Shown: positions 20,101 through 57,856 of the stretch, in pieces
Position numbering within the stretch: position 1 is the first letter of the stretch
How the letters are laid out: each line of letters opens with the position of its first letter
NCBI RefSeq assembly: GCF_020509005.1
Contig: NC_063013.1
Location: 5,642,001-5,706,000, forward strand
DNA length: 64,000 nucleotides
Direction of reading: 5' to 3'
Origin: Fulvia fulva
Lineage: Eukaryota; Ascomycota; Dothideomycetes; Mycosphaerellales; Mycosphaerellaceae
Notes under the pieces: model-generated
Database searches by the model: none
What the model was told of the DNA's origin: nothing
Seen by the model: the letters and a program-made list of their open reading frames with translations, nothing else
Made by a program: the position numbers and the translations under genes

Positions 20101-20716
20101 ACCGTACCGTGTCGTAAACGCCGTTAACTATTTATACCCCTCTATAATACGTAACTTATTAAAGGCTACTATAATGTCTAGCTTCGTAAAGTACTTCTTA
20201 CCGTGTATACGGTTAAGCGTCTCCTATATTAGGGGAATCGGATATCTGTTCTTAATCGTAATAGCGTTAAGGCCGCGGTAGTCGATATATACTCGTAGCC
20301 CTCTACCTAGTTTCCTTATAACTAGGACCGGCGTAGGCGATTGACTTGTCTTTTGGCCTACTTTACGTATTTTGTCTTCTTCGGATTGCTCTAGTATCTA
20401 CTTCTTTACAGCTTTATTTTCCTTCTTAGCCAAGCCGTAGGGTTTGCGATATAGTGGCTCCTAGGGCCCGTCCGGTTTAATATAAATCTCGTGATCTATC
20501 CCGGGTCGATAAGGTAGGAGTCCCTTATAATCTTTCGCCGAGAAGGCGTCCGCGATGTTATAATATATCTATAGGAGCTTCTCCTTCGGATTATGGTTGA
20601 ATTACTTGTTTAGGAACTGATCTAGGTCATTAGCCGCTATAGTACTTAGCTTTAGGTCGCCGCCCTCGTCCTTACGTCTCGTAGGTAAGATATAGAAGCA
20701 CTTAGCTCTAGGCCGG

Positions 20717-21141
20717 TGTTACGGATCGAGTCGTCTGGACCCTACGAGCCAACCGATTTCGGATCACGTGGTGCCGAGCCAACTAGTGGGCACTCCCGCT
20801 GCAGCTCGCTCGCAGCGATTTCTACGCTCGGTACGCCTTCTAGAGAAAGCACAGAAATGATGGAAAGCAAAGAAAGCAATACCCCTGGGCATAAGGGGAT
20901 CTCCTTTGTATTTAGGAACGCTGAGAATCCCTTATGGCTTCGAGGCGTTCAACTCACTGTTTAATATCACTGTTTGGAATACACCACAACACAACCTCTG
21001 CCTCACTGCTACTTGATCTCTGCGAGACAAGACAGCTACTGCTTCATCACCCTCCCTCAACTTCCCATCGGCCCGAGAACAAACCCGATTGAGCTTGGTC
21101 TTCTGATCTTGTGATATCATTAGGTTATACCAAACCTAACA
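20717..21141 (+). repeat. 5' LTR of element A
   Basis: 425 bp, TGTTACGGATCG...CCAAACCTAACA, matching 27254-27678 by eye with no difference seen. Confidence 0.92.
20908..20914 (+). promoter_or_regulatory. TATA-like box in LTR of element A
   Basis: GTATTTA in the 5' LTR, about 35 nt upstream of the GGCGTTCAA (20944-20952) that complements the primer-binding region. The spacing fits transcription starting just before that 9-mer. The transcription start is inferred. Confidence 0.45.
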
Positions 21142-21144
21142 GCT

Positions 21145-21153
21145 TTGAACGCC
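21145..21153 (+). promoter_or_regulatory. Putative self-priming primer-binding site of element A
   Basis: TTGAACGCC, starting 3 nt after the LTR end, is the exact reverse complement of LTR positions 20944-20952. There is no TGG that would pair with a tRNA CCA end in the 19-nt leader (21142-21160). This layout matches Tf1-like self-priming, where the 5' end of the mRNA folds back as primer. Confidence 0.6.
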
Positions 21154-21160
21154 CTCTACG

Positions 21161-23158
21161 ATGGGAGACCGACAGAGTGACCGGGGAACACCCGCCCCCA
21201 GTGAAGCAAGCAGAGCCCGACGACCTCAGACCGCGAACGATGCTATCAATGCCTTGGCTACTCATACAGGCAACGACACCCTCAAGATTGGCAAGCCAGA
21301 TTTCTACTATGGCGACCGAGACAAGTTCGACACTTGGGTTGCTCAGATGGACATGTACTTCTTGTTCAACTCCATGGCTGAGAACCTCAAGCCTGTCTTT
21401 GCCACTACCTTTCTTCGAGGACGAGCACAGCATTGGGTCAAACCATTCCTTAGGAAGTACCTGGACAGCAATGGAGAAGATAATGCCGACGGAGTCTTCA
21501 AGTCTTACAATCATCTCAAGCATGCTATGAAGAGCGTCTTTGGGGTCTCCAACGAGATTGCCACTGCCGTTCGTGTAATTCAGCACTTGACTCAGAAGAC
21601 ATCCACCGCCGAATACGCTGCCAAATTCCAGGAGTACGCACAACTTACCGATTGGGACGACGAAGCACTTCAGGTCATGTACCGACGAGGACTGAAGGAG
21701 CATGTCAAGGATGAGTTAATGAGGGACGGTCGGAGGATCGATGGCTTAGGCGACCTAGTCCAAGTCACGATTGATCTTGACGACAAGCTCTACGAAAGAG
21801 CTATGGAACGACGATACGACTCCAAGGTATCCGGAAAGGCCGGATACACACCAGGCTACGACAACCATAACAAAGGCTTCAACGACAACTACAACCACAA
21901 GCCTAACAACAAACCATATTACGGACCTCAACCAATGGAGCTCGACGTTACCGAAAAAGGTCGCAAGATCAGGAACAGCAAGGGGAAAGGAAGACCCCCG
22001 AGTTCAGGAAGAGAAACACGAACCTGCTATGGATGTGGCAAACCTGGCCACCTAGCAAGGGACTGCCGCGGTAAGAATATGGTGCGCCGCGAACAGTTCA
22101 ACATGATGCAACCCCGAACTAGTAAATCTGAGAGCAGTGTTGGATCTCCGGGAGATACCGACTATACTCAGAGAGTGGAGGAGAGAGCTAGCAACAGAAG
22201 CACGAAGCCTCTCCTGGACCCCTCACAAGGACGAGGAGGATACCATGGGCAGCGAATGGAGGTCATTCCATTCGGACTGCAGAACCGACCACAACAGTTC
22301 AACATGATGGCACGAAGAGTCGATTACGAGATCGAATCCGAATCTCGAAATGGTCATGGAAGCCTTCATTGGCGATTCTGTTACCAAGACTCGTGTCAAG
22401 TTCACTACTCCGCAAAGGCTGGAGCAGGGTATTGGCCTCAGCAACCGCGAGGAACCCTGGGAGCGACGCATAGGCAAGACGCTACGCTCCGAGAAGTGGA
22501 CATCGACGAATCCTGCTTCGACGACGACGACAAGGAAAACCAGGACCCAGGATGGAATGGATCGTGGTCACCGGAACCACAAGAACGTCAAGAAACCACC
22601 GGGCTGGATACGATCGAAGAAGACCAGGATCCGGAAGAATCAAGCCAAGAAGATTCCTCCGAAGGAGAAGAGAGCGACACTGACGACGACAACGAACAGT
22701 TGACCTTCACGATTGATGCACCTAAGAAGCTATTCGACATGATCGTACATCTACAGAGAAGGCATGAAGAATTCCTACCGAAAATATCGGGACGGCGAAT
22801 GCTACACCCAATTGAGTTCGACAAGACCCTCGACACGCTACGGGCAGTGGTATGGACATACCCAGCTGTGAGCGTCACCGAGAACCTAGCAACAGCTGTC
22901 ATCGAGAGACCACCGATAGGAAGCCATATGATAGGACCAGGATACCTTACACCGTCAGGAACATTCGTATCGAACGAATTACGACACGCCGTACAACACG
23001 TACGATCTCTCTACTCAGAAACGCAGAAGATCCAGGAACGTCACCGACTACAGGTGTGGACACAGAAAGGCTCGCGCCAGGTTCAAGCGGAGGCCTCGAG
23101 ACACGAAGCACGACGTTCCACATACGAACAGGGAAAAGGATCGACTCCTCAGGAATGA
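21161..23158 (+). CDS. gag: Gag of chromovirus A
   Basis: Structural protein of the retrotransposon particle, 665 residues. The N-terminal part carries a Ty3-type capsid-like region ([29 protein letters not shown]). A CCHC zinc knuckle, [14 protein letters not shown], lies near residue 290. The C-terminal third is acidic and charged ([19 protein letters not shown]). Translation starts only 20 nt after the LTR. Near the stop, positions 23131-23137 read G-GGA-AAA in phase, a -1 slippery heptamer leading into pol. Confidence 0.88.
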
Positions 23159-26100
23159 GCGACCGAAAGGAGTTATGCAACACAGAAAAGGCTCAAGCAT
23201 CGACTACAGTGTTTCGAACGAAGATTATCGTCAATGGGCATCGGACATATGCCATGATAGATTCCGGAGCGAGCGGGAACTTCGCCTCCGAATCATTTGT
23301 CAAACGACACGGGCTAGCTACCCGCAGAAAGAAAGAGGGTTATGAATTGATCGCGGTAGACGGATCATCCTTACCCAGTGTGGAGCGCGAGACGATACCG
23401 CTACCACTTGCAATCCAACAGCACCACGAGGAAATTACCCTGGATGTCACTGACATGGCCAGTCATGACATTGTACTCGGTACACCTTGGTTGAGAAAGC
23501 ACAACCCAGTAATCGACTGGAGAACAGGAGTACTCAGATTTGAACAATGCGATTGCGTTATCGCTATTGAACCTACGCAGCGGCAGCGTTCGCTGGTGGA
23601 TGAGGTAAGACAGCTAAACAGGATACAGCTTGCACCGACCAGAAGGACAGAAGAACCACCTTCGACTGGGATAGACACCGACTTGGGGCAGTTGGGTCAC
23701 GAGATCACCAGAACGGATGGAAGTAACGCACCATCGAAGATGACTGGAAAATCGGAGCCAGACATCCCTCAGGAATATCGCAGATGGTCACGACTATTCC
23801 GAGAAGAGGAAGGCAAGAACGCCTTACCTAAACACGCACCATGGGATCACAAGATAAACATTCAGCCAGGAAAAGAGCCTCCATGGGGACCCCTATACCA
23901 AATGTCCGAGAAAGAGCTCCAAACCTTACGAGAATGGCTGAAGGAGAAGCTGGCCAAAGGATGGATACGACGATCCACCTCGAGCGCAGGAACTCCATGC
24001 ATGTTCGTTCCAAAACCGAACGGGAAACTACGACTCGTACAAGACTACCGAAAGTTGAACGAGATCACAATCAAGAACCGATATCCGCTACCCAACATCG
24101 AAGAAGCACAAGACAGATTAACCGGATCGGACTGGTACACGAAGATTGACCTACGAGATGCCTTCTACGCGATACGAATGGCAGCTGGAGAAGAATGGAA
24201 AACCGCCTTCAGAACAAGATATGGACTCTACGAGTTCTTGGTCATGCCTATGGGACTGACCAACGCACCCGCATCCTGCCAGGACCTTGTCAACGAAACG
24301 CTTAGAGACCTGCTCGACGTGTGCGTCATTGCGTACATGGACGATATACTGGTCTACACAAAAGGATCCCTCCAGGAGCACACCAAGCAAGTTCAGGACG
24401 TCTTCGAACGACTCACCAGAGCCGGGTTCAAGACGGCACCCGAGAAATGCGAGTTCCACAAGAAGCAAGTCAAGTTTTTAGGCTTCATCATCAGCACAAC
24501 AGGAATCACCATCGATCCTGCGAAAACACAGTCAATCAGAGAATGGCCAGAACCAAAGACAGTCAAGGAAGTACAATCGTTCCTTGGACTCGCCAACTAC
24601 AACCGGAAATTCATCAAGGACTACTCAAAGACAGCAACACCAATGACGATGCTTACAAGAAAAGACGTCAGCTGGAAATGGGGAAAGGAACAACATGAAG
24701 CGTTCACGAAACTCAAGGAACAATGCGCTTCAGCCCCAACGCTTCGACTATTCGATGGTAGTAAGGAAGTCCACATCGAGACCGACGCGTCCGATATGGC
24801 AATAGGCGCATGTCTTACACAGACACACGAGGGGAAACGACACCCAGTGGCCTATTATTCCCGAAAAATGACCACAGCGGAACAGAACTACGACATCCAT
24901 GACAAAGAGCTTCTAGCCATTGTTGCTGCCATGCAACATTGGAGAGTGTACGTCGAGGGCCCACCGAAGTTAACGATTCTTTCAGACCACAAGAATCTTA
25001 CGTACTTCACGACGACGAAAGAACTTACCCGAAGACAAGCCCGCTGGTCGGAGCTGCTAGGACAGTACAAGTTTGAAATCAAATACACTCCAGGAACAGA
25101 GAATGGCCGCGCAGACGCGTTGAGCCGACGAAGCGACTACATGGAAGGAAAAGAACCAGTGCAACACAAGATACTTAAGACGAACCCCGATGGAAGTCTT
25201 AGTGCCAACACGAAAGAGTTCAACAACATCGTACAGATCCTAGGCGACAAGGAAGAACAGTTCCCTATATCGCAAGGAAAATACCAAGTACCGAAGGACC
25301 GAGAAGAAGAGTGTATACAACAACATCACGACGAGCCAACTTATGGACACCCTGGAACTACGAAGACGGTTGACCTTATACAACGTAGCTTCTCATTCCC
25401 ACAAATGAGACAAAAAGTATTACGCTACATTAAGCAATGCGTACACTGCCAACAAAACAAAGCTGCGAGACACGCCAAGTACGGTCACCTACAGTTCAGG
25501 ACACCACCGACGAAACCATGGGACGAAGTTACAATGGACTTTATTACAAAGCTCCCATTGTCGAAAGACCAAGTCACGAAACAAACGTACGACATGATAC
25601 TGGTCATGGTCGACAGACTCACAAAATATGCACACTTCATTCCTGCATCGGAGACATATACAGCAGAGCAGCTCGGATACCTCGTACTAGACAGATTGAT
25701 CCGATACCACGGATTCCCGGAAACATTCATCACGGACAGAGATAAGCTCTTCACGTCCAACTACTGGAAAACACTTATGGGAACGATCGGGATCAAGCAC
25801 AAGTTGTCAACAGCATATCATCCAGAGACCGATGGACAAACAGAAAGAACGAACCAAACGCTGGAACAATACCTAAGACACTACATTAACTACGCACAAG
25901 ACAACTGGGTTTCACTACTGCCAGTGGCGCAGATTGCACTAAACAACCACAAATCAGAGACAACTTCAACGACGCCATTCTATGCGAACTTTGGCAAAGA
26001 TCCTAACCTGTTCGGAACACCTGGATCTCACCCACAAGCCGAGAGAGCAATCGTGACGACGGAGACTCTCAAGGAGGTGCACAAAGAAGCACGCAAAGCG

Positions 26101-26643
26101 ATCGAAGATGCACAACAAAAATTGTCTCAGCAACGGCAAAACCAAAGAAAAATGGCACCTCTACTAAAAAAGGGGGATAAGGTCTATCTCCTCACAAAAA
26201 ACCTGAGAACGAGAAGACAGACCAAGAAGCTGGATCATGTTAAGGTCGGACCATTTTTCATCGATAAAGTCGTAGGACCAGTCAACTACCGGTTACGACT
26301 ACCACCTGACGCCAAAATCCATCCAGTCTTCCACATCTCCAAGCTGGAACCCGCAGACGCCAAAACACCTTGCCAAGAAAGCTTCCATTTCGAGCCGGAA
26401 GCAGAAGACGAATTCGAAGTCGAAAGAATCCTAGACAAGAAGGGTCAGAAATACCTTGTCAAATGGAAAGGATACGACGAATCAGAAAATACCTGGGAGC
26501 CAGAAGAAAACCTCACGAACTGCTGCCAGCTCCTGCGACACTTCCGCCAGGATCAACAAATAAAGAAGGATCGAACCGGAGGGTCCCAGAGACGCCAGCA
26601 AAGAAATCTGAGGAATCCAGGGACGGGTCGTTTGCCCAAGTAA
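22852..26643 (+). CDS. pol: Pol of chromovirus A (protease, RT, RNase H, integrase, chromodomain)
   Basis: A polyprotein in the -1 frame relative to Gag. The open frame overlaps gag by about 300 nt and is probably entered by frameshift at 23131-23137 rather than at the ATG at 22852. In order it shows: protease with active site DSGAS ([11 protein letters not shown]); reverse transcriptase with [19 protein letters not shown] and the catalytic YMDD in [12 protein letters not shown]; RNase H ([15 protein letters not shown]); integrase with an HHCC zinc finger ([11 protein letters not shown]...CVHCQ) and a DDE core ending [15 protein letters not shown]. The C-terminal chromodomain, [20 protein letters not shown] followed by [10 protein letters not shown], places it in the chromovirus group. 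No frameshift or stop is visible, so it could be active. Confidence 0.92.
23131..23137 (+). promoter_or_regulatory. -1 ribosomal frameshift heptamer (element A)
   Basis: GGGAAAA lies in gag phase as G-GGA-AAA, the X-XXY-YYZ form, 18 nt before the gag stop codon. A -1 slip continues directly in the pol frame. Downstream structure was not evaluated. Confidence 0.6.
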
Positions 26644-27157
26644 ATGGAGACAAAGCAAGCTCGGGACCCAGGGAAGCTACCCCCTCCGGAAGAGATGATA
26701 ACGAGCGCTCCTCAGCCTCCGCCTCCAGAGCGTTGGCCTCCGCAACCGACACTGCATTATCCGCACGACGATCCAACAGCTCCAGCTGTTTCGCCAGCCG
26801 CTCCTCCTTCGCTAAAGCCGTTGATGTGGCCTCGCGAGCCCGCGCGACGATCTCGCGCTCCCGATCCATCGCAGCGGCAGAAGCCAGACGCGCATCTTGA
26901 ATTTGGGACAGCAGCTTTGCGCGCTCCTTGCTCAACCTCTCCCATTCCGACGCAGTGATCTTAATGTCACAACCCTTCAACCCGTGGATGTTGCACTCGC
27001 TGCAGCGACCTGATCTTACGTGCACCTTGCACACCCGACCTAGACGACGACAATTCGAGCATGCCCGAGGCATGATTTCGCCGTTCGCGCGAATAAAAAT
27101 TCCAAGACGCTTGCGATCGTCGGAGGAAGAGCGTTTTGAAGAGGACGCCTTTGGCAT
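26513..27157 (-). CDS. Antisense Zn(II)2Cys6 / coiled-coil ORF carried by element A
   Basis: A 214-residue open frame on the strand opposite to gag-pol, between pol and the 3' LTR, overlapping the pol end by 131 nt. After a basic N-terminus ([17 protein letters not shown]), the stretch [11 protein letters not shown]...[13 protein letters not shown] has spacing C-x2-C-x6-C-x8-C-x2-C-x7-C. This fits the fungal zinc-cluster DNA-binding domain. A long charged heptad-like helix follows ([20 protein letters not shown] and onward), as in the dimerisation coiled coils of Gal4-type factors. It ends with a hydrophobic/acidic tail ([17 protein letters not shown]). The frame can extend upstream to 27319, but the ATG at 27157 is the natural start. 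A DNA-binding or regulatory role is inferred from family features only. A captured host fragment is an alternative. Confidence 0.65.
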
Positions 27158-27253
27158 GGCGAAGGAGAAGAAACGGTCATAACGACCTACGAATAGAAGG
27201 GACCCCGCAAGCTTATGATTAGCTCGGGACGAGCTAGACTGGAAGGGGGATGG

Positions 27254-27678
27254 TGTTACGGATCGAGTCGTCTGGACCCTACGAGCCAACCGATTTCGGA
27301 TCACGTGGTGCCGAGCCAACTAGTGGGCACTCCCGCTGCAGCTCGCTCGCAGCGATTTCTACGCTCGGTACGCCTTCTAGAGAAAGCACAGAAATGATGG
27401 AAAGCAAAGAAAGCAATACCCCTGGGCATAAGGGGATCTCCTTTGTATTTAGGAACGCTGAGAATCCCTTATGGCTTCGAGGCGTTCAACTCACTGTTTA
27501 ATATCACTGTTTGGAATACACCACAACACAACCTCTGCCTCACTGCTACTTGATCTCTGCGAGACAAGACAGCTACTGCTTCATCACCCTCCCTCAACTT
27601 CCCATCGGCCCGAGAACAAACCCGATTGAGCTTGGTCTTCTGATCTTGTGATATCATTAGGTTATACCAAACCTAACA
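27254..27678 (+). repeat. 3' LTR of element A
   Basis: 425 bp matching the 5' LTR. It is followed by the GCCGG duplication and then by resumption of the interrupted relic. Confidence 0.92.
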
Positions 27679-30646
27679 GCCGGTACGCGTACATCTCCTA
27701 TACGCGTTAAGAAACGCCCTAGTAGTCCACCTCTTCTTCGTCGCCTATACTAAACGATAAGACATTCAACTCCGCCCCTCCTACTATAAACCTACCGGAG
27801 GTTCTAGTAAAGGGCTCTAGTCCGTATCGTACTTATGCCTACCTTCTAAGGTAGTTTAGGGACTGTACTATTATCGATGTCCGGTTAGGTAGATAATGAC
27901 TAAAGTAGTAGTCGGATCTAAAAGCTACCTCACCTATAGCCTAGAAGATGTCGGGGTTGTGCTAGCTTAACTATAGTAGTCTAAGGACGATGTCGTACTC
28001 GAGGTCGGTTACGTAGTATATTATTTGCTCCTAATAACTACCGATAACTACGTCGATTAAGGCTACGTAGGTAATGCGCCGTATACTTACCTTTCTATCT
28101 CCTAGCGTAAGCCTCTTGCTTTTTACTAGCTCGAAGAGGGGTAATATATGTTTACGTATGAATTTCTAGTTAAGAAAGAGAGATATACTCGTAGAATCTA
28201 ATAGGCCTCGAGCCTTTTTATGTTATATTATTACTAGTAGTACTATATAAGGATGTATATCTAGTTATTGTCCTTTTAGTACGTAAGCTAATAATCTTAG
28301 CTCGCCCTTACTATAGTCCGCCTCTTATATTCTGTGTCTCTTAATCTTATGCTCTTTCTAACCTAGGAAGTTCGGTTGACCGCTATCTACTACGCTTAGG
28401 TAGCGGTCGTACTATTTCCCTATTACTATAGGTCTATAGTAAGGGAGCTAAGGTTCGGGTTAGCGTTCGCGTTGTTTCGTAGTCGCGGTAGGCGATAGTC
28501 GCTATCGTAACCGTATATCGGGCACTCGGGGTTAGTCGATATATACGAGCCTATACGGTAGCGGTAGTACTTACCTTACTTCTTAAGTTCTTCGCGCTAC
28601 TTACGGTTAAGCTATAGTAGATTCTATAATAAAACGGGTAGATCTTCCTTCTTCTTAGTACCGGCGTATTACGGAGGACGCTAGACTACGGTACCTACTA
28701 TGCCTATAGCGGTACTAGTAGCTACTAAGCTATTCTAGTTATTCTAGCCGCCGTTACCGTTACTACGAGGACGCTCCTTCTACGGGTATAGGCGGTCTGT
28801 TTCGTAGAAGCTCTTGTCTAGGGTAGTATACTCTTCGATGACGTCCTATATATTATATAGTCGACGGTCGACTTCGCGGTCACTAAAGGTCTTAATAAAG
28901 TACTTACGGTTTAGTCGGTTACGGAATAGTATAAGCTCGGTCTTATCGCTCTATTCTATCTAGGTACGTAGCTTCGAATAGCGAGCGTAGAAGGCTACGA
29001 AGGTCTCGCCCTACTCTTACTTATAGGTAGCGATATTAACTATAGCCTTAGTTCCTTCGTTACGGGTACTATACTAGCGTATTATCTAATCTAATAGTTC
29101 TTCGCCCGTCTTGAACTTATTAAAGGACTATTGCCCTAGTATAGGGATCCTCGGCTTAATGCTTTGCTAGGGATCTCCTTAGGTCTATCCGTACACGAAG
29201 CGTAGACTATCTACTTCTATACGGAAAGTAGCTATAGTTAACTTTAGGAGCACGCTACTATACTAGCTATCGAAATTCGGATCGTTATCGTTCTTAAAGT
29301 ATCTAGGATCTAGTACGCCTTTCCTAATCTCTTTACCGCGAGTTAGGGTACGGTCGATAGTAAATAGGCGTTTAGAGAGGTCTATAAGTAGTGTCTATAT
29401 ACGACTAGAACGTAGTCTCGAGTCGCGGTTATCTAGGCGTAGGCGATCATCGCGGCGGTTATTACGTCTTCCGCTATTACTATTATTATCGTCATCTCTA
29501 CTACCACTACCCCCGTCTCTACTAGTAGCTTCGCGGTACTTACGTATTAGCTGCTCGAGTAAAGTCTTACGTAGGCGGGAACGAGAGGGTCGACGACTAG
29601 ATCGGCCTCGATTGCCTCCTTCGTTCTATATAGTACCTATAGCTTCGAGTCGAGCCTTTAAGTTATCGATCTCCTTCTATAGGGCTAGGTTTTTTACTTT
29701 AGCGTCCTACTTCTTTGCCTCGGCATCCTATGCCTTCTTCTTCTCTTTCTCGTAGATCTTACTAAACTACTTATACAAGTTATTAGCTTCCTTATACTTC
29801 TTCTCTACCTCTTATAACTTGGCTAGGTCGTAATCCTTCTTGCTCTTAAGGTCCGCGGCTATTCTCTACGTTATAGCCTCTTCGCTTTATAGCATCTTAT
29901 AGATACGGTCGTACTCGGTATATAGCGTAGTATACTAGTCGTTCTAGACGGTATTAGCTCGCTCTATTATATCGAGTTACTAGCCTTTAGTAATTGTAGT
30001 ATTAACTACCTATAGTACTAAATCGTAGGTAGTCTTTAGGTGTTAGGAAGCGAGGTTCGCGAGTTTGTCTAGATCGACATTCTAGTATTCGGATACGAGG
30101 ATATACTCTGCCTCGTCGAGTGATAGATACACCTCGTCTAGTTTGTCGGGGTCGTTAGGGTTCTCTTCGAGCTTAAACTCGAATAGTTCTATAAAGTTAA
30201 TCTCGCTAGCTACTACTCGGTCGATAGCCTTCTAGTATACTTTATCAATCTCTTACTATAACGCGACACCGGTGTTAACTATAACACGCTAGTTATCGTC
30301 CTATATCTAACTCTAAGGAAAAGAGGAGAGGTCGGGGAAAAGAGAGGTACGTTACTACTTACCTTTACCCTTCTAATTAGGCTTCTAGGGTAGCGGTATA
30401 CCGCTATCTATCTATAAGGGTATATTGTCTAGATTGTTTAGGGGAGGCGTAACGATACCTATATCCTGACTGTTTACTAACGCGCGACTACCTACTAATA
30501 ATGTCGCCGCGTTACGCTCTCTAGGCATCTACGCGTAATACGCCTTACCGTGTTCTAGGGTATCGCGCTCTCGCGATTCGAGTTCTATCCTATTATTACG
30601 CGTCCCTTACCTAAATCCGTGATCTAGGTAGGGTAGTAGAACAAAC

Positions 30647-30830
30647 TATAAGGGCGCGCGTACTATAGAGTCTAATTGAGATAGTTATTGTTCTACGAAG
30701 CTACGAAAGAGGAGCGCGAGGCGCGGCGGGCTTATAAGGAAGCGCTAAGCCGCGCTAACCCGATACGGAAGGTCCGCGGTTTAGCCGGGCCGACGCTTCG
30801 GTAGTAAAGTAGCGCGGGTCGCCCGTAATA
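30647..30830 (-). repeat. Degenerate LTR of the relic Ty3 element
   Basis: 184 bp alignable over its length to the reverse complement of the element B LTR, with many C-to-T and G-to-A differences. It marks the 5' end of the minus-strand relic. Confidence 0.8.
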
Positions 30831-31830
30831 GGATTAGTTCTATAATCGGGGAGGATCGAGGGTAGGGTAATAAGGAACTTTATATTAGTTAGTAGGTAGA
30901 AACGTAAGGAGTACGCTACCCGGTATAGTATATACCCCGAGTAAACCTACGAGGTATAGACGGCCGCTTTCTAGAGATAGGCTACGGTAACGCGAAGGGC
31001 GTTAAAACCTAGGGCGTAGTATATACTAGTAGCGACGGCTAATACTGTCTATATAGCCCGAGAGGACGGATACGTATATCGGTTAATAGAGAGTACTAAA
31101 GGGCTTAGGCCTATAGAGGTAGATATTAGCTTAAGGAGCAAATAGGTAGGGAGGGCGTAGATAAAAGCTTTTACTCCGGGCTAACCTCTCGAAACGAGGC
31201 TATACGGTAGTACTAGATAAGTAGGAAAGCGCGGTTAAGACTTGTTACCTTATCTCGTAGCTAGCTTACTAAATACGATTCCTTCCTTACCCTCGACATC
31301 GTAGGAGCCTTTAATAACGTCTTATACTAAAGGCTAATATATATCCTATAATAGAAAGTTATCCCCTAGTAAGTAACGAAGTTCGTCTACTCCTTTCTCT
31401 AGGAACGGACGACATACCTAGTCCTAGGGAGGTATACGTCCGACCCGGTAAAGGTAGAGGCTAGAATACCTTAGGGATCTACTCTCTCTCCTATCCTATT
31501 TCTAATATTTATGTCTAATCTAATCCCCCTACTTACCTCTCCGTAAACCTTAGTATTGGAATTCGTAGACGATATAAACATTCTAGCCTAGTTAGACTCG
31601 ATAGAGGAGAACTGTCGCCTCCTTAAAGATAGGTACAAGAAATGCGAGGAGTAGGCAAAGAAGTATAGTGCCCGGTTCGCCCCTCAAAAGTACTAACTTA
31701 TATACTTTAGTAAAGCGAGAACATACTATAATATAAAGGCGGCGGTAAGAATCTAAGGCTACGAGACTAAGCTATTAGCGGAGCTACGAGTACTAGGGAT
31801 CTAGCTCGACCCGAAGCTAAGCTAGAATAT

Positions 31831-32014
31831 TGTCACGGGCAGCCCGCGACCCCTCACTGTAGCTGCGTCGGCCCGGCTGAACCGCGGACCTTCTGCATCG
31901 GGTTAGCGCGGCTTGGCTTTACTTTATAACTTCGCCGCGCCTCGCGCTCCTCTTTCGTAGCTTCGTAGAACAACAACTATCTCATTCGGACCCTATGGTA
32001 CGCGCGCCCTTACA
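31831..32014 (+). repeat. 5' LTR of element B
   Basis: 184 bp identical by eye to 38869-39052. It contains TTTATAA (31923-31929), a TATA-like box, and GTAGAACAA (31965-31973), which complements the priming site after the LTR. Confidence 0.92.
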
Positions 32015-32016
32015 GT

Positions 32017-32025
32017 TTGTTCTAC
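32017..32025 (+). promoter_or_regulatory. Putative self-priming primer-binding site of element B
   Basis: TTGTTCTAC, 2 nt after the LTR end, is the exact reverse complement of LTR positions 31965-31973, which lie about 40 nt downstream of the TATA box. No tRNA-type TGG start is present. This is the same layout as in element A, with an unrelated sequence. Confidence 0.6.
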
Positions 32026-32150
32026 CTTACTACCCAGATCGCGGATCTAGGTAAGGGACGCGTAACAACAGGAACAGACAGAACCGCAGAACTCGAGAAC
32101 GCGCAGAGCCGCATCAGAACACAGAACACGGTAAGGCGCACAGCGCGCAG

Positions 32151-34277
32151 ATGCCTAGAGAACGCAACGCGGCGACACCATCAGCAGGTGGTCGCGCGCT
32201 CGTAGACAGTCAGGATACAGGCACCGTCACGCCTCCCCCGAACCCAGACAACATGACTTCACAAACAGCGAACGGCGGCATGCGACCGCCACCTAAGCCT
32301 AAGGGCAAAAGCAAGCAGCGCACATCTCTTTTCCCCGACCTCTCCTCTTTTCCTCAGAGTCAGACACAGGACGACAACCGGCGGGTCACAGTAGACACCG
32401 GTGTCGCGCTACAACAAGAGATTGATAAAGCTTACCAGAAGGCCTTCGAGCGAGAAGAAGGTGGTGAGATTGACTTTACAGAACTGTTCGAGTTCAAGCT
32501 CGAAGAGAACCCAGGCGGCGACCCAGACGAGGTGTATCTATCACTCGACGAGGCAGAACACATTCTCGCATCCGAATACCAGAATGTCACCCCAGACAAC
32601 CTCACGACCCTTGCATCCCAACACCCGAAGACCACCCACGACTTCGTGCTACAAGCAGTCAACACGGCAATTACTAAGGGCAGACAACTCGATGTAATGG
32701 AGCGAGCCAACGACCTCCAGAACACCCAGTACACCACGCTGTACACCGAATACGACCGCATCTACAAGATGCTGCGAAGTGAAGAGCTTGTCACACAGAA
32801 AATGGCAGCAGATCTCAAGAGCAAGAAGGATTGCGACCCAGCTAAGTTGCAAGAGCTGGGGAAGAAATACAAGGAAGCCAACAACCTGTGCAAGCAGTTC
32901 AGCGAGATCTGCGAGAAGGAGAAGAAGAAGGCACAAGATGCTGAGGCGAAGAACCAGGCCCTACAACAAGAAGTCGATGACCTGAAGGCTCGGCTTGAGG
33001 CAGGAGACACCACACAGAACGGAGGTAGGGGCCGCTCAGGCCGCCGACCCTCTCGTTCCCGCCCACGCGAGACCTCACTCGAGCAGCTATTGCGTAGGTA
33101 TCGCGAAGCTGCTGGTGGAGGGGGCGGTGGCGGTGGTGGTGATAACGATAACGATGGAGACGACGATGACCGTGGCGACAATGGCCGAGGACGTGACAAC
33201 GACCGTCCGCGACCAGGACCCAACAACAGTCGTGACTCGAGAATGCGCAACACCCGCACCCAGACACCACTGGTTGACCTTCCAGAACGTCTCTTCACCA
33301 TTGACCGCACCCTCACTCGCGGCATGGAGATCGGCAAGGGTGTGCCCGACCCTAAGCACTTCAAGAACGATGACGACCCCAATTTCGACAGCTGGTACAG
33401 CAGTGTTCTCCTAAAGCTGACTGTAGCAACCTTCCGCACTGAGGCAGATGGTCTGCGCTTCGTGTATGGGTGGACACAAGGTGATCCTCAGCGAAGCATC
33501 AAGCCGAGGATCCCTGTGCCTGGACAGCAGTCCTTCAACGAGTTCAAGACTGGAGAAGAGTTATTAGACTGGATGACACGCCAATATGGCACACGCAATG
33601 AGGGAACCAAGGCTATGGTTGACATTGCTACCTGCAAGCAAGAACAAGGCGAAACCTTTGTAGCCTTCCATGCCCGCTACTCGAAGTTGCGCGCCTGGAT
33701 GTCATGGACCGATGAGACCGAGCTCATGCTGTTCCGTAACCGACTGAACCGCAAGTACTTCATCAAGACCTTCGGCGACCGCGAAGTCGACCGCCGCCTA
33801 GACAGCATGCAAGACGTTATCGAGGAGTGCACCGCACTGGACGAGAGTTTCTACGAGACAGATCGACTATACCCGCAGAAGGAGCGCCCCCGGGGCAATG
33901 GCAACTCGAACAGCAATGGCGGCCAGAACAACCAGAACAACGGCAACGCAGTTGCTAGTGCCGCTGCCGGTGTAGCAGGTGCCTTGGTACAGCGCCCACT
34001 ACAGTACGCTGGTACCAAGAAGAAGGAGGATCTGCCGACACATCTACAGAACCTGCCTACGCTCAACCGTGAGCAGCGCGAAGACCTTAAGAAGCAGGGT
34101 AAGTGCTACCGCTGCCGTACAGGTTCTCACGTGTCGACCAACCCTGAATGCCCAATGTATGGGTACGATGGCGACTATCGCCCACCGCGTCCACGCAATA
34201 CCACGCCGAATCCGAACGCGAACCTCAGTTCCCTAGCCGCCGATCCGCGGCAGGGAAATGGCACGACCGCTGCCTAA
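32151..34277 (+). CDS. gag: Gag of chromovirus B
   Basis: A 708-residue structural protein. A long charged helical region (about residues 170-290, for example LGKKYKEANNLCKQFSEICE) is likely coiled coil. It is followed by an Arg/Gly/Asp low-complexity stretch (GGGGGGGGGDNDNDGDDDDR). The capsid-like core has FDSWYSSVLLKLTVATFRTE and TFVAFHARYSKLRAWMSW. One CCHC-like knuckle, CYRCRTGSHVSTNPEC, lies near the C-terminus. The in-phase heptamer GGGAAAT (34253-34259) lies 15 nt before the stop codon. Confidence 0.85.
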   Translation: MPRERNAATPSAGGRALVDSQDTGTVTPPPNPDNMTSQTANGGMRPPPKPKGKSKQRTSLFPDLSSFPQSQTQDDNRRVTVDTGVALQQEIDKAYQKAFEREEGGEIDFTELFEFKLEENPGGDPDEVYLSLDEAEHILASEYQNVTPDNLTTLASQHPKTTHDFVLQAVNTAITKGRQLDVMERANDLQNTQYTTLYTEYDRIYKMLRSEELVTQKMAADLKSKKDCDPAKLQELGKKYKEANNLCKQFSEICEKEKKKAQDAEAKNQALQQEVDDLKARLEAGDTTQNGGRGRSGRRPSRSRPRETSLEQLLRRYREAAGGGGGGGGGDNDNDGDDDDRGDNGRGRDNDRPRPGPNNSRDSRMRNTRTQTPLVDLPERLFTIDRTLTRGMEIGKGVPDPKHFKNDDDPNFDSWYSSVLLKLTVATFRTEADGLRFVYGWTQGDPQRSIKPRIPVPGQQSFNEFKTGEELLDWMTRQYGTRNEGTKAMVDIATCKQEQGETFVAFHARYSKLRAWMSWTDETELMLFRNRLNRKYFIKTFGDREVDRRLDSMQDVIEECTALDESFYETDRLYPQKERPRGNGNSNSNGGQNNQNNGNAVASAAAGVAGALVQRPLQYAGTKKKEDLPTHLQNLPTLNREQREDLKKQGKCYRCRTGSHVSTNPECPMYGYDGDYRPPRPRNTTPNPNANLSSLAADPRQGNGTTAA

Positions 34278-37200
34278 GCGTGGTAGACAGCGGTCACCCG
34301 AACTTCCTAGGACAGAAAGAGCATGAGATTGAGAGACACGGAACGCAAGAGACGGTAACAGACTATAGTGAGGAGCTTAAGATATCGGCATGCGCACTGG
34401 ATAAGCAACAGCCAGCTGTGTACCCTCACATAGTGTTACCCGTAATGATACAACAGAGAAAGGCTCGAGGCCTTGTAGATTCTGCTTCCACCTCTCTCTT
34501 TCTTGACTGGAAATTCACACGCAAATACACAATACCCCTGATCCCTTTGACGCAAAGCCGACGACTAACACTGGGAGATGGAACGGCCACTGCGCGGCAG
34601 ATTACACACGCGGCCCCTGTAGACGTAGTCATAGGCGATCATCACGAGCAAATGTTATGCTACGTCACCGACCTCGAATACGACATCGTCTTTGGCCTGC
34701 CGTGGCTTACAGCGCACAACCCAAACATCTTCTGGGAGACAGGCGAGGTGGCATTCAGGTCGGATTACTGCTTTGGTCACTGTCTACAGAATAAGACACC
34801 GACAACAGTGCAATCCCTGAACCACCGCGAGAAGAAGAAGCAGGCACCAGTACGGTACGGACCAGAGCCCTTCACTGGAGATGTAGCGAGCTTCACAGCA
34901 GGAGGAGCAGAGCTGAATGCCTCATCATATGACCTGGAAGACATAGACGATGAAGAAGTGGACTGCCAGGGCGTTTCTCAACGCGCGTGGGGGATGTACG
35001 CGCACCGGCCTGGGGCTGAGTGCTTCTACATCATGCCCACTAGGCGTGAGAGCGACGGCGGAGAGCTTAAGCTGAGTGCAATGGCTGCTGATGATCTGGA
35101 CCAATTCTTGAACAAGCAGTTCAATCACAACCCGAAGGAGAAGTTGCCGCCAATGTACCACGATATTGCGGACGCTTTCTCAGCTAAGGATCATGAAGGA
35201 CTCCCACCTCACCGACTAGGCGTAGATCATGAGATTCACATTAAGCCTGATGGTCCACAAGAGCCACCATACCGCAAGCCCTACGGCCTAGCTGAGAAGG
35301 AGAACGAGGCAGTTAAAAAATGGCTAGACGAGCAAACATCTGAAGGGAAGGTGCGGAAAGCAGGGCAAAAGACGAACCAGTCTCCTGCACCAGTGCTAGT
35401 GGTACGTAAGCCTGGAGGTGGGCTGCGTGTTTGTATCGACTACAGAGGATTGAATGCGATCACTATCAAGAACCGGTATCCGATTCCCTTGATACAAGAG
35501 ACGCTCAACCGCATGCACGGCAAGAAGTACTTCACAAAGCTGGACATTGTAGCAGCCTTCAACAAGTTACGGATAGCTGAAGGGCACGAGTGGTTGACAG
35601 CGTTTGCGACACGATACGGCATCTACGAGTGTCTAGTGTTGCCATTCGGCTTGTGCAACGGACCAGCATCGTTCCAATCATACATCAACAAGGTCTTGCA
35701 AGAACACCTAGACGACTTTGTGTCGGCCTACCTGGATGACGTACTTATCTTCAGTGACACCTTGGAGGAGCACATTGAACACGTGCGGAAGGTTCTCACC
35801 AAGCTACGCGATGCAGGACTTACAGTGGACATCGACAAAAGCGAATTCCACCAACAGAAGGTGAAGTATCTTGGGCTAATCATAACCCCTGACGGCATCG
35901 AGATGGACCCCGAGAAACTCGAATGTATTCAGACATGGGAAGCTCCTGAGAACCTGAAGGATGTCCAGGCCTTCCTTGGATTTGCCAACTTCTACAGGCG
36001 ATTCATCGAAGCATTTTCGCGCATAGCTGCTCCTCTCACAAACCTGACCAAGTCGGACGGACCAAGCAATCACAAGAACAGAAGGATTCAATGGTCACTA
36101 GATTGCCAACGAGCCTTTGACAATTTGAAAGCTGCGTTCAGCAAAGCCGGCATGCTCGCACATTACGTGCCAGGCAGGGAAACAGTAATAGAGACAGATT
36201 CTTCAGATTTTGTGAACGCCGGCGTGCTTTCGCAGTATGACGAGAATGGTGTGCTACATCCTGTGGCCTTCTACTCGAAGAAGTTGAGTCCACAGGAGTG
36301 CAATTATGAAATCTATGATAAGGAACTGTTAGCCATCATCAAGGCTTTTGAGGAATGGAGACCCGAGCTCGCCTGCGAGGCAGATGATGAGGACTCACAG
36401 CCAGTCAAGATTTACACCGACCACAAGAACCTGGAATACTTCATGACGACAAAGCAGCTAAATCGGCGACAAGCGCGTTGGGCTGAGTTCTTGTCACAGT
36501 TCAACTTCAAGATAATATACCGTCCAGGACTTCAAGGTACAAAGCCAGACAGCCTGACGAGACGCAGCCAGGACCTTCCGCAGGGGGTGGACGACCCTCG
36601 GAACCAGCATCAGCATCAGACATTGCTGCCTCCTAAGCGATTCCTTAAGATCGCCTCACTACAGGCAACAGTAGAAGATGCGCCGGAAGAAGAGGAACCA
36701 GTACCGCTAAACCCTGAAGCTGAAGAGTTTATGCCTACAGAACGAGATGCGCCTACTGAACAACCGGCGACGCGTGAAAGTCAGCGGGAAGCCGAACTCG
36801 AGTATCGAATGTCGACGGCGTACGTAACCGATAACGAGCTCAAGACCGCGATTAAGGACCTGCAGAAAGACCGCACTCCTACACTGCTACAGAGAGCGAA
36901 GATTCACCCAGCACACTGCAAAGTGGATGGCGACCTGCTATATGTTCGAAACCAATACGACGGCTGGAGCTTATGGGTACCAAATGACCAAGCTTTACAG
37001 ACCAGGATAATCAAGATAAACCATGACGCTCCAGCAGCAGGCCATCCAGGACGAGCTCGCACTTATGAACTCGTAGCACGTGAATTCTACTGGCCTGGAT
37101 TAGCGAGATCCGTGCGCAGATACACCGCGAATTGCCGCACCTGCCGTACAACAAAATCTCTGCACTCCCAGCCACTAGGATTACTACAGCCACTTCCTGT

Positions 37201-38944
37201 TCCAGATCGGCCTTGGAAACACATTGCAGTCGACTTCGTTGTCGGACTCCCAGACAGCACTCTTGACGGCATGGTCTACAACAACATTATGACCGTCACT
37301 GACAGGCTCACTAAGGAAGTCGAGCTGATCCCTATTGGCGCAATGACAGCACAGAATACGGCAAGGCTTTTCCTCAAACATGTGTTCTGTCGGCGCGGGT
37401 TTCCTGACACCATTACATCAGACCGTGGCAAGCAGTGGGTTGCTACCTTCTGGAAGAAACTCTGCAAGATGCTCCGCACAAATCGCAAGCTGAGTTCTTC
37501 GTATCACCCAGAAACTGATGGACAGTCAGAACGCACTAACCAGGCGATGGAACAGTATCTCCGCATGTTCACCAACGAGGCACAGGATGACTGGGCAGAA
37601 TGGCTGTGCCTTGCTCAGTTCGCGATCAACAATCACCTGTCTGAGACTACTGGTGTGTCGCCGTTCTACGCCACCTTAGGATACAACCCTGAGTTCATAG
37701 AGCGAGTTGACCTGAACGCTGGAAAGGAGGGAGGACTGACCACTCTCCAGCGACTGGACGCGCGATCAGCAGAAACCTTTGTGCGTCGAATTTGCGAGCT
37801 TCACAAACACCTTCAAGAGAATATGCGAATGTCACAAGCTCTCCAAGCAGAGGCAGCAAACCGCCACCGAAGCATTCCTCCAGACTACAAGGTGGGTGAT
37901 TGGGTGTATCTTAGCACCAAGAACATCCGCACGACTCGACCATCTAAGAAGCTGGACAGGAGATATGCCGGCCCTTACCAGATCACGGAAGTTATGCCGG
38001 CCAGACTCTCTTATCGACTGAAACTATCAGACGCTCTAGTAGGACTTGATAACTGCTTCCACACCTCACTACTACAACGAGCCGACCACCCCGATTTCCC
38101 ACCACTTGAAGGGCAGCATCTGGCGCCGCCACCACCGATAACTATCGAACCTGACACCACCGAGGCTGATGCAGCAGCCGATGTAGTGGCAGCACCTACG
38201 CACATGTACGAGGTGGAAAAGATCCTTGACATGTACACCCGTAAGCGGGCAGGCAAGGTGAAGAAGGGGCACAAGCGCAAAGTAGATACATGGTACAAGG
38301 TGAAATGGGCTGGATATCAGAACGAAGAGGATGGTGAGACCTGGCAACCTGCAGAGGACATGCTTGAACACGCAGCCGCCGCTGTTGCAGACTTTCACCA
38401 TAACCGGCCGGAGTTGTCTACGCCTGTAGGCTTCGCAGCTCCATCTGACTGGTCCCTACCAGCCACTGAGATACTCGGGCTCAACTCGATCAGGGTCATT
38501 CCGAAAGACACCGTCACGAATGAGTCGCCTCGAGCCTTGCCTCTAATAGAATCTGCTCCGCACATATTCGATACTCGAGTGGAGCCTACAGAGCCTGCAA
38601 TGATACCCAACTTTGGTCATAAGGATCATACGCGAGTGCGAGCCGAAGACAGACTTAGATCTGGGGCAAGCCAGCTAACTAGGCAACATGTTTCTCGAAG
38701 GAAGCCGGTCGAGGATAGTCTTGATAGAGCGAATGCGATGTTATCGGATGACGACAGGGCACTAGAGGATGATTCGGCGTTCGCGCGATTATGGAGCTCG
38801 ACAGGCAAGTGGCCTCACAAGGTGAATAACGCTCAGAGGACTGAGGCGTGTTTTGGGAGGGGGGGTACTGTCACGGGCAGCCCGCGACCCCTCACTGTAG
38901 CTGCGTCGGCCCGGCTGAACCGCGGACCTTCTGCATCGGGTTAG
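34148..38944 (+). CDS. pol: Pol of chromovirus B (protease, RT, RNase H, integrase, chromodomain)
   Basis: An uninterrupted frame of 1598 codons, -1 relative to gag and overlapping it by 130 nt. The protease-like site reads DSAST (GLVDSASTSLFLDW) rather than the usual D-S/T-G. Reverse transcriptase shows [20 protein letters not shown] and YLDD in SAYLDDVLIFSD. RNase H follows (VIETDSSDFVNAGVLSQYD), then integrase (GHPGRARTYELVAREFYWPG, CRTCR, ETDGQSERTNQAMEQ). A chromodomain-like segment, YEVEKILDMYTRKRAGKVKK followed by WYKVKWAGYQNEEDGETWQP, has a long insertion between its first two strands. A further tail of about 170 residues runs into the 3' LTR; the stop at 38942-38944 lies 76 bp inside it. 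Confidence 0.92.
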   Translation: MPNVWVRWRLSPTASTQYHAESEREPQFPSRRSAAGKWHDRCLSVVDSGHPNFLGQKEHEIERHGTQETVTDYSEELKISACALDKQQPAVYPHIVLPVMIQQRKARGLVDSASTSLFLDWKFTRKYTIPLIPLTQSRRLTLGDGTATARQITHAAPVDVVIGDHHEQMLCYVTDLEYDIVFGLPWLTAHNPNIFWETGEVAFRSDYCFGHCLQNKTPTTVQSLNHREKKKQAPVRYGPEPFTGDVASFTAGGAELNASSYDLEDIDDEEVDCQGVSQRAWGMYAHRPGAECFYIMPTRRESDGGELKLSAMAADDLDQFLNKQFNHNPKEKLPPMYHDIADAFSAKDHEGLPPHRLGVDHEIHIKPDGPQEPPYRKPYGLAEKENEAVKKWLDEQTSEGKVRKAGQKTNQSPAPVLVVRKPGGGLRVCIDYRGLNAITIKNRYPIPLIQETLNRMHGKKYFTKLDIVAAFNKLRIAEGHEWLTAFATRYGIYECLVLPFGLCNGPASFQSYINKVLQEHLDDFVSAYLDDVLIFSDTLEEHIEHVRKVLTKLRDAGLTVDIDKSEFHQQKVKYLGLIITPDGIEMDPEKLECIQTWEAPENLKDVQAFLGFANFYRRFIEAFSRIAAPLTNLTKSDGPSNHKNRRIQWSLDCQRAFDNLKAAFSKAGMLAHYVPGRETVIETDSSDFVNAGVLSQYDENGVLHPVAFYSKKLSPQECNYEIYDKELLAIIKAFEEWRPELACEADDEDSQPVKIYTDHKNLEYFMTTKQLNRRQARWAEFLSQFNFKIIYRPGLQGTKPDSLTRRSQDLPQGVDDPRNQHQHQTLLPPKRFLKIASLQATVEDAPEEEEPVPLNPEAEEFMPTERDAPTEQPATRESQREAELEYRMSTAYVTDNELKTAIKDLQKDRTPTLLQRAKIHPAHCKVDGDLLYVRNQYDGWSLWVPNDQALQTRIIKINHDAPAAGHPGRARTYELVAREFYWPGLARSVRRYTANCRTCRTTKSLHSQPLGLLQPLPVPDRPWKHIAVDFVVGLPDSTLDGMVYNNIMTVTDRLTKEVELIPIGAMTAQNTARLFLKHVFCRRGFPDTITSDRGKQWVATFWKKLCKMLRTNRKLSSSYHPETDGQSERTNQAMEQYLRMFTNEAQDDWAEWLCLAQFAINNHLSETTGVSPFYATLGYNPEFIERVDLNAGKEGGLTTLQRLDARSAETFVRRICELHKHLQENMRMSQALQAEAANRHRSIPPDYKVGDWVYLSTKNIRTTRPSKKLDRRYAGPYQITEVMPARLSYRLKLSDALVGLDNCFHTSLLQRADHPDFPPLEGQHLAPPPPITIEPDTTEADAAADVVAAPTHMYEVEKILDMYTRKRAGKVKKGHKRKVDTWYKVKWAGYQNEEDGETWQPAEDMLEHAAAAVADFHHNRPELSTPVGFAAPSDWSLPATEILGLNSIRVIPKDTVTNESPRALPLIESAPHIFDTRVEPTEPAMIPNFGHKDHTRVRAEDRLRSGASQLTRQHVSRRKPVEDSLDRANAMLSDDDRALEDDSAFARLWSSTGKWPHKVNNAQRTEACFGRGGTVTGSPRPLTVAASARLNRGPSASG
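34253..34259 (+). promoter_or_regulatory. -1 ribosomal frameshift heptamer (element B)
   Basis: GGGAAAT in gag phase as G-GGA-AAT, shortly before the gag stop. A -1 slip enters pol. It is the counterpart of GGGAAAA in element A. Confidence 0.55.
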
Positions 38945-39052
38945 CGCGGCTTGGCTTTACTTTATAACTTCGCCGCGCCTCGCGCTCCTCTTTCGTAGCT
39001 TCGTAGAACAACAACTATCTCATTCGGACCCTATGGTACGCGCGCCCTTACA
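38869..39052 (+). repeat. 3' LTR of element B
   Basis: 184 bp matching the 5' LTR. The last residues of Pol are coded inside it. It is followed by the AATAT duplication. Confidence 0.92.
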
Positions 39053-57210: not shown

Positions 57211-57856
57211 TGCGAACACTCCATTGCGCCCAAACGGGCTGACGACTGTATCTCAGACCCCCACAATTGCTCTGCGTATCATTCTGTTGTCCTTGCGATG
57301 CTCATGACGCCGTGAGTGCTAAAGATGGGTGTTTGCGATAGCTGTTGGTAGAATGCCGGCTGCTTGTTCTTGGCCGAGTGAGGTAGAGGGAGAGAGAGGG
57401 AGCTTCGCGGAGGGATGAATCGTCAAGACGCACGTGGATGCAAGCAAGAGCGAGAGTGTCCCGTAATCCTCGTCACAAGCCGCTGCCTCTGCTGCTGCGC
57501 ATTATCAGGGCCGCGCAGAGCATTTGGGGAGAAGGATCTATTGACCACTAAGCGGCACAATGATGCTTTGCGCGGGATTGCGGAGCCAGTCGGACATTAT
57601 TTAACCTCTGTTGGCGTTGACGATCATTGCACAACATCAACACGCAGTTCAGTAGACTCGAGAGGAAGCTGTATCATCCTGTACAGACATTGTGCGATTC
57701 ATGGGACTTCTATGGCTCATCTACGCACTACGAAGTGCTCCAATGGCATTGAATGACGCAGACGACCACGCCTTGTCGCGTGTGCTCGAGCCTCGTTCGT
57801 CCCATGGAGCTCCGCTCACCGAACGCCACTTAAATCTTTGACCGCGAAAGCCTCCT
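57211..57856. other. Promoter region of the Fmp27 gene
   Basis: 646 bp between the start of the Fmp27-like gene and the stop of CSN5, both on the minus strand. It includes a purine-rich tract near 57380-57402 (CT-rich on the coding strand). No gene is recognised. Confidence 0.45.

Follow-up and report, generated by a model that had tools for sequence, protein, structure and literature searches.

Ty3 retrotransposons of fungi and plants are known to carry extra genes in the stretch from pol to the 3′ long terminal repeat (LTR), oriented against gag-pol. In the Boty-like Ty3 elements of Botrytis cinerea this place is held by brtn (PMC8365987, PMC7264820, PMC4227169, PMC5987419), whose source study, Zhao et al. 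2011 (Virology 417:248), is used here as described in the citing papers. Plant Ty3 elements carry antisense accessory open reading frames (ORFs), namely Grande gene23, RIRE2 and Retand TRP28/PF04195; in the passages describing them the Grande protein is nuclear and transcribed from its own promoter, Retand includes some non-autonomous elements and has family-specific tandem repeats (PMC7264820, PMC11963269), and the Retand TRP28 antisense proteins are predicted to bind DNA (PMC11963269). HBZ of human T-cell leukemia virus type 1 (HTLV-1) is also named among antisense genes (PMC11963269), and for the antisense accessory genes of LTR retrotransposons the function is described as undetermined (PMC7264820). 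The subject here is a gene of this kind in a window of 64,000 nucleotides of Fulvia fulva contig NC_063013.1, the whole stretch that was analysed and in whose positions all coordinates are given. The window holds a complete Ty3 chromovirus, element A (20717-27678, 6962 bp), and on its minus strand, at 26513..27157, a frame of 214 amino acids (aa) which, on the sequence comparisons below, is a genuine accessory gene of a fungal chromovirus lineage. Its product is probably a small zinc-cluster protein of the DNA-binding type, and on balance the gene is taken to encode the element's own regulator, acting on the U3 region of its own LTR and more probably as an activator.

Element A and the brtn-bearing elements have in common that they are chromodomain Ty3 elements of a fungus and that a gene in antisense orientation follows pol ahead of the 3′ LTR, and the descriptions of brtn in the citing passages mention no zinc cluster, gag-only carriers or exchange together with U3. 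No match in the protein searches was named BRTN, most matches being nameless, and the likeness to brtn is one of description. Place and orientation are also those of the plant antisense ORFs, which differ in protein domain and for which the passages describe no exchange of a cassette. HBZ is a basic leucine zipper (bZIP) protein, a nuclear coiled-coil regulator with its promoter in the 3′ LTR; like the present gene it is antisense and next to a 3′ LTR, but it is a bZIP and not a zinc cluster and belongs to a retrovirus, and no homology is claimed. The preliminary description had suggested that the gene would be a new kind of retroelement accessory gene, which is too strong, antisense genes in this place being described from Botrytis and plants in the passages cited (PMC7264820, PMC8365987). 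Because brtn, Grande and Retand are known and the Retand proteins are predicted to bind DNA, the novelty is limited to a variant. The titles and abstract openings of the literature searched, where subscription papers are thinly covered, describe no LTR element with an antisense gene of the zinc-cluster type; new here are the zinc-cluster type of the protein, the gag-only carriers, the exchange jointly with U3 and the U3 arrays, from which a function is inferred.

The start codon of the antisense gene is on the 27157 side and the stop on the 26513 side, so that the frame overlaps the final 131 nt of pol and begins 96 nt from the 3′ LTR, the leader from the LTR boundary to the ATG occupying 27158..27253 (minus strand). 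The protein consists of a helix, a six-cysteine head (residues 33-63), a long helix (69-154) and a tail with the motif LALSPFTW. Its cysteines are spaced C33-x2-C36-x6-C43-x8-C52-x2-C55-x7-C63, and both this spacing and the 214-codon frame just inside the 3′ LTR agree exactly with what had been reported earlier. AlphaFold gives a confident head and a single long helix at high confidence for residues 69-154, which may be read as a coiled coil, and a tail at low confidence (48-55). Of the coiled coil followed by an acidic and hydrophobic tail, as claimed earlier, the long helix is borne out, the tail being of low confidence.

The frame was followed through the genome (67.17 Mb, 14 contigs), where a protein search returned 66 matches to the antisense protein and a search at the DNA level, made with the 3′ part of pol, gave 40 places, the ones scored out of 65 candidates. 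Copies lacking the frame had been named beforehand as the finding that would speak against a gene; beside the places with pol at least 89% identical the frame is open in 28 of 28 (15 A, 7 C and 6 G, among the 40 scored). At the 12 more diverged pol places 11 have a stop-containing remnant, and C2:2583064 gave no match in the searches made. In family A the frame is present at 15 of 15 places found, with an identical protein in 14. Altogether 82 stop-free places (15 A, 5 B, 7 C, 9 D, 23 E, 6 G and 17 H) fall in seven families that have open copies in the same antisense position.

Conservation is at the protein level. In a comparison of six families, which family F entered as a segment picked for being open, all 15 pairs conserve the frame (E 1.8e-15 to 3e-50) and differ most at third codon positions. 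Each of the five other frames is interrupted by one stop or more in every family and is less similar. The best similarity outside the coding frame is that of the complementary in-register frame, reaching E 1.4e-30 where the true frame gives 3e-50, as expected if it is a shadow of the true frame. Nei-Gojobori counts put pN below pS in each of the 10 family pairs; these counts were used because an IQ-TREE codon model of the gene gave saturated branch lengths, and as dS is infinite in 6 of the 10 pairs and above 3 in 3, dN/dS is qualitative only. The protein database searches added at least 136 further protein clusters at E ≤0.01 (part of the search was confined to the 8000 candidates with the most words in common). 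The few named homologues are from Cladosporium, Cryoendolithus, Rachicladosporium and the lichen Xanthoria, none of the homologues has a precomputed Pfam domain, and the antisense position is established in this one genome, the homologues of other fungi being seen as proteins. A scan of viral contigs found 33 stretches fitting a pattern and no relatives among them.

A passenger frame without function is therefore very improbable. Damaged copies with stops of the kind left by repeat-induced point mutation, and three family E copies that have lost the sixth cysteine through A>G changes, are what such a passenger would show, but it is opposed by the 82 stop-free places in seven families, by pN below pS in every family pair (with the saturation just noted) and by the homologues in other fungi. 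A chance antisense frame was rejected, the copies retaining the frame and its protein being conserved across families, and the earlier claim that it is more than chance is upheld by family A and by the family pairs alike. Capture of a host gene by one family was likewise rejected because diverged versions hold the same place in eight families. Relic copies with many stops, as expected from repeat-induced point mutation, are seen in L031, L032 and L046 and at other TAG/TAA-rich places. The relics include all three gene types, I, II and III, which therefore probably predate the live families.

The Zn2Cys6 family follows the spacing rule C-x2-C-x6-C-x5-12-C-x2-C-x6-8-C. The window protein and those of families B, C, G and H agree with this rule (PF00172), whereas those of D and E fall outside it with an x13 first loop. 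The cysteine motif could be parsed in 88 of 101 proteins, the window protein included, leaving 13 unparsed, and the first loop is x6 in 29 of the 88, x12-14 in 58 and x10 in 1. In Pfam the window protein scores 10.6 bits against Zn_clus (PF00172), below the gathering cut-off of 21 bits, and every other protein with a displayed score is also below it, the highest displayed being 12.9 bits (P0092). Zn_clus is still the commonest Pfam match, found in 14 of 33 members with a best E of 0.011, and is unlisted for the family H protein at E ≤1. DUF3716 matches weakly in 4 of the 33 members (best E 0.005). PF04195, the TRP28 domain of Retand, is not among the matches of the window protein in the full Pfam table and is absent from the tables of other members as far as these are listed (25 of 98 families). 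The structural look-alikes listed are Zn2Cys6 domains, at low Z and mostly solved on DNA, plus one long-helix match, and the lack of other folds in this list does not exclude other folds. Because its Pfam score is below the cut-off, the protein is labelled Zn2Cys6-like and not filed as a member of PF00172; the earlier assignment to the fungal Zn(II)2Cys6 factors stands for the spacing and for the zinc-cluster-like head followed by a long helix, and fails at the Pfam cut-off. The six-cysteine spacing and the head-then-helix order are shared with Gal4-type transcription factors, to which the low-Z look-alikes may point in fold as well. Unlike them, the present family is without a long regulatory domain and has a large subgroup with the x13 first loop.

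Families D, E and H contain between their LTRs only gag (346-349 aa) and the antisense gene, without pol. The family D element measures 2367 bp (target-site duplication ACTAG), that of E 2516 bp and that of H 2434 bp in the copy measured, and this structure was read at full or near-full length in 3 D, 11 E and 10 H loci. A gag search listed 10 places of D, 23 of E and 19 of H, where identity to the gag of D is 77-100%; for the gags of the autonomous families it is 35-43%. TR-GAG non-autonomous elements are likewise gag-only LTR elements, from which D, E and H differ by the antisense second gene. Family E also forms a tandem array of 2161-bp period; at C1:11152769-11159698 of G000 (part of it in L033) four matches at this spacing are head-to-tail E units with common LTRs. 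A cluster of mixed substitutions in the gag region of a family D copy (L030, positions 328-877) looks like gene conversion from a related element.

That elements without pol, which others could supply, keep the antisense gene points to a role bound up with their own DNA or RNA. One rival reading is a real accessory factor that is not a transcription factor and serves nucleic-acid binding for packaging, nuclear import or targeting of the pre-integration complex, the U3 repeats then being sites for host factors. Gag-only elements keep exactly gag and the antisense gene, as if the latter served particle or RNA, but the listed look-alikes, apart from the long-helix match, are DNA-bound domains for the most part, and antisense expression would presumably part the protein from the gag-pol RNA that makes the particle. 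Such a factor is considered rather unlikely.

It is in the gag-only family E that a pattern bearing on RNA pairing appears. All 13 distinct variant sites that its antisense gene shows over 10 copies and the reference are sense-strand A>G, with 3 further A>G sites outside the gene, and in copies L047-L053 (element positions 1529-1881) the sites are often clustered, as in L049 with 7 in 55 bp. The 10 copies compared are from 23, and since 7 of them were chosen for a differing match score in the gene, the concentration there is biased, whereas the all-A>G composition is not. The pattern is like that left by A-to-I editing where RNA pairs with an antisense transcript, as expected from deaminated double-stranded RNA if the frame is translated but its main role is that of an antisense RNA pairing with genomic RNA and limiting copy number by double-stranded RNA silencing or editing. 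This role is held to be quite improbable: the concentration is partly built in by the choice of copies, the pattern is missing in family H (10 of about 19-20 copies compared) and not evident in families A-D, and a protein is called for by the conserved amino-acid sequence, by cysteines that do not vary and by the excess of third-position differences. The A>G pattern was left out of the main argument.

Indirect evidence for the element's own LTR as target comes from the linked difference of gene and U3. The families fall into three lineages, A/C/G, B/F and D/E/H. Between A and C, gag and pol are mostly 83-97% identical, with two dips to 71-76%, and identity is 44-54% over a block that sets in at the end of pol and takes in the gene with the first part of U3. 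Beyond it R-U5 is again alike, at about 90-91% for A/C, 93% for G with A and C, 92% for B/F, 98% for D/E and 99% for H with D and E. U3 identity in pairs of the same lineage is 53-64%, barely higher than the 43-60% across lineages, one shuffled control giving 43% (maximum 52%), and common U3 sequence is nearly lost both within and across lineages. For A/C, dS is 0.32 in gag, 0.39 in pol and 1.49 in the antisense gene; for D/E it is 0.11 in gag and saturated in the gene. The window gene product is 69% identical to P0003 (source unstated), one of the homologues P0003 to P0005 with 68-69% identity, and about 43% to that of family C, whose pol is about 90% identical to the window element pol. Gene and U3 thus have a history separate from the rest of the element and move jointly, and action on the own LTR, as first suggested, gains indirect support.

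The linkage might instead be a mere by-product of where templates switch, with a gene function unrelated to U3. The blocks are bounded close to where pol (or gag) ends and close to the U3/R junction, first-strand transfer at the U3/R region is an established retroviral mechanism, and the R-start motif is common to the A/C/G and B/F lineages, so that exchange within A/C/G and B/F would be explained by switches of template close to R and to the pol end. D/E/H have another R-start motif, however, and exchange with them therefore needs another route, also for the types they have in common with G and F. A by-product also leaves unexplained why old variants persist in gene and U3 alone while gag, pol and R-U5 are homogenised, and it is regarded as improbable.

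Short repeats are found in the U3 of every family. In a lag test against shuffles, the repeat test quoted here, U3 exceeds the shuffles in 8 of 8 families (0/200 shuffles in C, D, E, F, G and H, 3/200 in A and 4/200 in B) and R-U5 in 0 of 8; one control LTR without an antisense gene, at window 31828-32014, has no repeats above shuffles. Counts of 6-mers give 0/300 shuffles in B, C and E and 1-2/300 in F (whole LTR), and are not significant in A (77/300) and D (56/300). The units are AGAAAGCAC in family A, GTGCCTGGA and inverted AGGCAC in C, AGAGAGCA in D, TGATCAG/TGCTCAG in B, E and F, and GGTCACTCG in G and H. In element A the AGAAAGCAC-like units have a 9-bp period and lie at 20844..20879 in the 5′ LTR and 27381..27416 in the 3′ LTR (plus strand). 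The arrays have the sense TATA-like box on one side and the antisense gene on the other, so that a single array could act in both directions.

Two pairs join gene and repeat across lineages: G and H have the mutually closest genes and a common U3 repeat, as do E and F, both with a type II gene, for the repeat. These pairs speak against an accessory factor indifferent to U3. Several observations weigh the other way, against a regulator matched to its own U3. The families B and E share TGATCA arrays despite unlike proteins, the like proteins of A/B and D/F go with almost no common U3 motif, and over 21 cross-lineage pairs the correlation of U3 motif with protein similarity is not significant; that the motif overall does not track protein similarity is what an accessory factor would lead one to expect. 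Arrays A and B are the two weakest: at lag 9 the family A array is matched by 1/300 dinucleotide shuffles (3/200 with the wider lag range), and its score is equalled by 2 of 82 internal 225-nt segments. Since gene and U3 are neighbours, their joint movement alone is also no proof of a working partnership. A general rule that the U3 motif tracks protein similarity was dropped after the non-significant test, and G/H and E/F remain as two suggestive pairs.

With these points weighed, regulation of the element by its own antisense protein is still favoured, and may proceed as follows. The U3 of the 3′ LTR would be a two-way promoter giving an antisense mRNA, from which a small coiled-coil protein, probably dimeric and with a Zn2Cys6-like head, would be made and go to the nucleus. 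There its target would be the short motif repeated in its own family's U3, and binding would set how fast gag-pol is transcribed from the 5′ LTR. As these repeats also stand in the 3′ U3, the protein would control its own gene as well. Activation is favoured over the other sign of effect on account of the acidic/aromatic motif (LSPxTW, DDFW) at the end of many homologues. Gene and U3 would form one cassette, swapped between lineages probably by template switching in reverse transcription.

More tentatively, and short of what is granted to the regulator as such, this may be an exchangeable, immunity-like cassette of an antisense Gal4-like regulator and a repeated U3 operator, swapped between autonomous and gag-only lineages, of which the gag-only elements keep the two specificity parts. 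Lambdoid phages swap repressor and operators in a comparable way. If so, gag would serve packaging and the regulator its own promoter, the general enzymes being borrowed, and different cassettes would define groups of elements without cross-regulation in one nucleus, supplying a mechanism by which related elements avoid it in one genome. A DNA-binding-type head and adjoining candidate target repeats are here combined in one element, and the natural variation between close relatives together with minimal 2.4-kb carriers makes a self-encoded retrotransposon regulator directly testable.

Element A itself has the PR-RT-RNase H-IN order, C-terminal chromodomain, LTRs and target-site duplication of a Ty3 chromovirus. 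Its 5′ LTR (20717..21141, plus strand, as are all features listed here) and 3′ LTR (27254..27678) are 425 bp each, TGTTAC...CTAACA in the 5′ copy, and are bordered by the duplication GCCGG (20712-20716 and 27679-27683). The gag ORF (21161..23158, 665 aa) has Retrotrans_gag and a zinc knuckle, and the pol ORF (22852..26643) protease, reverse transcriptase, RNase H, integrase and the chromodomain. The U3 of the 3′ LTR runs over 27254..27477, its end estimated from the R-start motif, with TATTTA at 27446, and the polypurine tract (27241..27253) adjoins the 3′ LTR. A putative primer-binding site was read from the sequence at 21142..21154; its TTGAACGCC has a complement in GGCGTTCAA, which is located in R around LTR position 227, as in self-priming elements. 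By size and LTR length element A is presumably CfT-I of Cladosporium fulvum (McHale 1992).

Just ahead of the polypurine tract lies an inverted repeat, AGCTCG-GGA-CGAGCT (27221..27235), read by eye and without a count of pairs. An inverted repeat with a GGGAC centre is seen by eye at the same spot in L034, L035, L036, L033 and L046, and in families B, D, E and F the arms vary with complementarity kept, which suggests an RNA hairpin or a two-fold DNA site. Elsewhere in the window, two related stretches at 28137-34539 stand face to face as long inverted repeats (70-86% complementary). At 31828-39052 direct repeats of 187 bp are 7038 bp apart and a 1598-aa frame enters the downstream one, probably another LTR element, without room for an antisense gene. 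A single open frame of 2952 aa occupies 48361-57219 on the minus strand.
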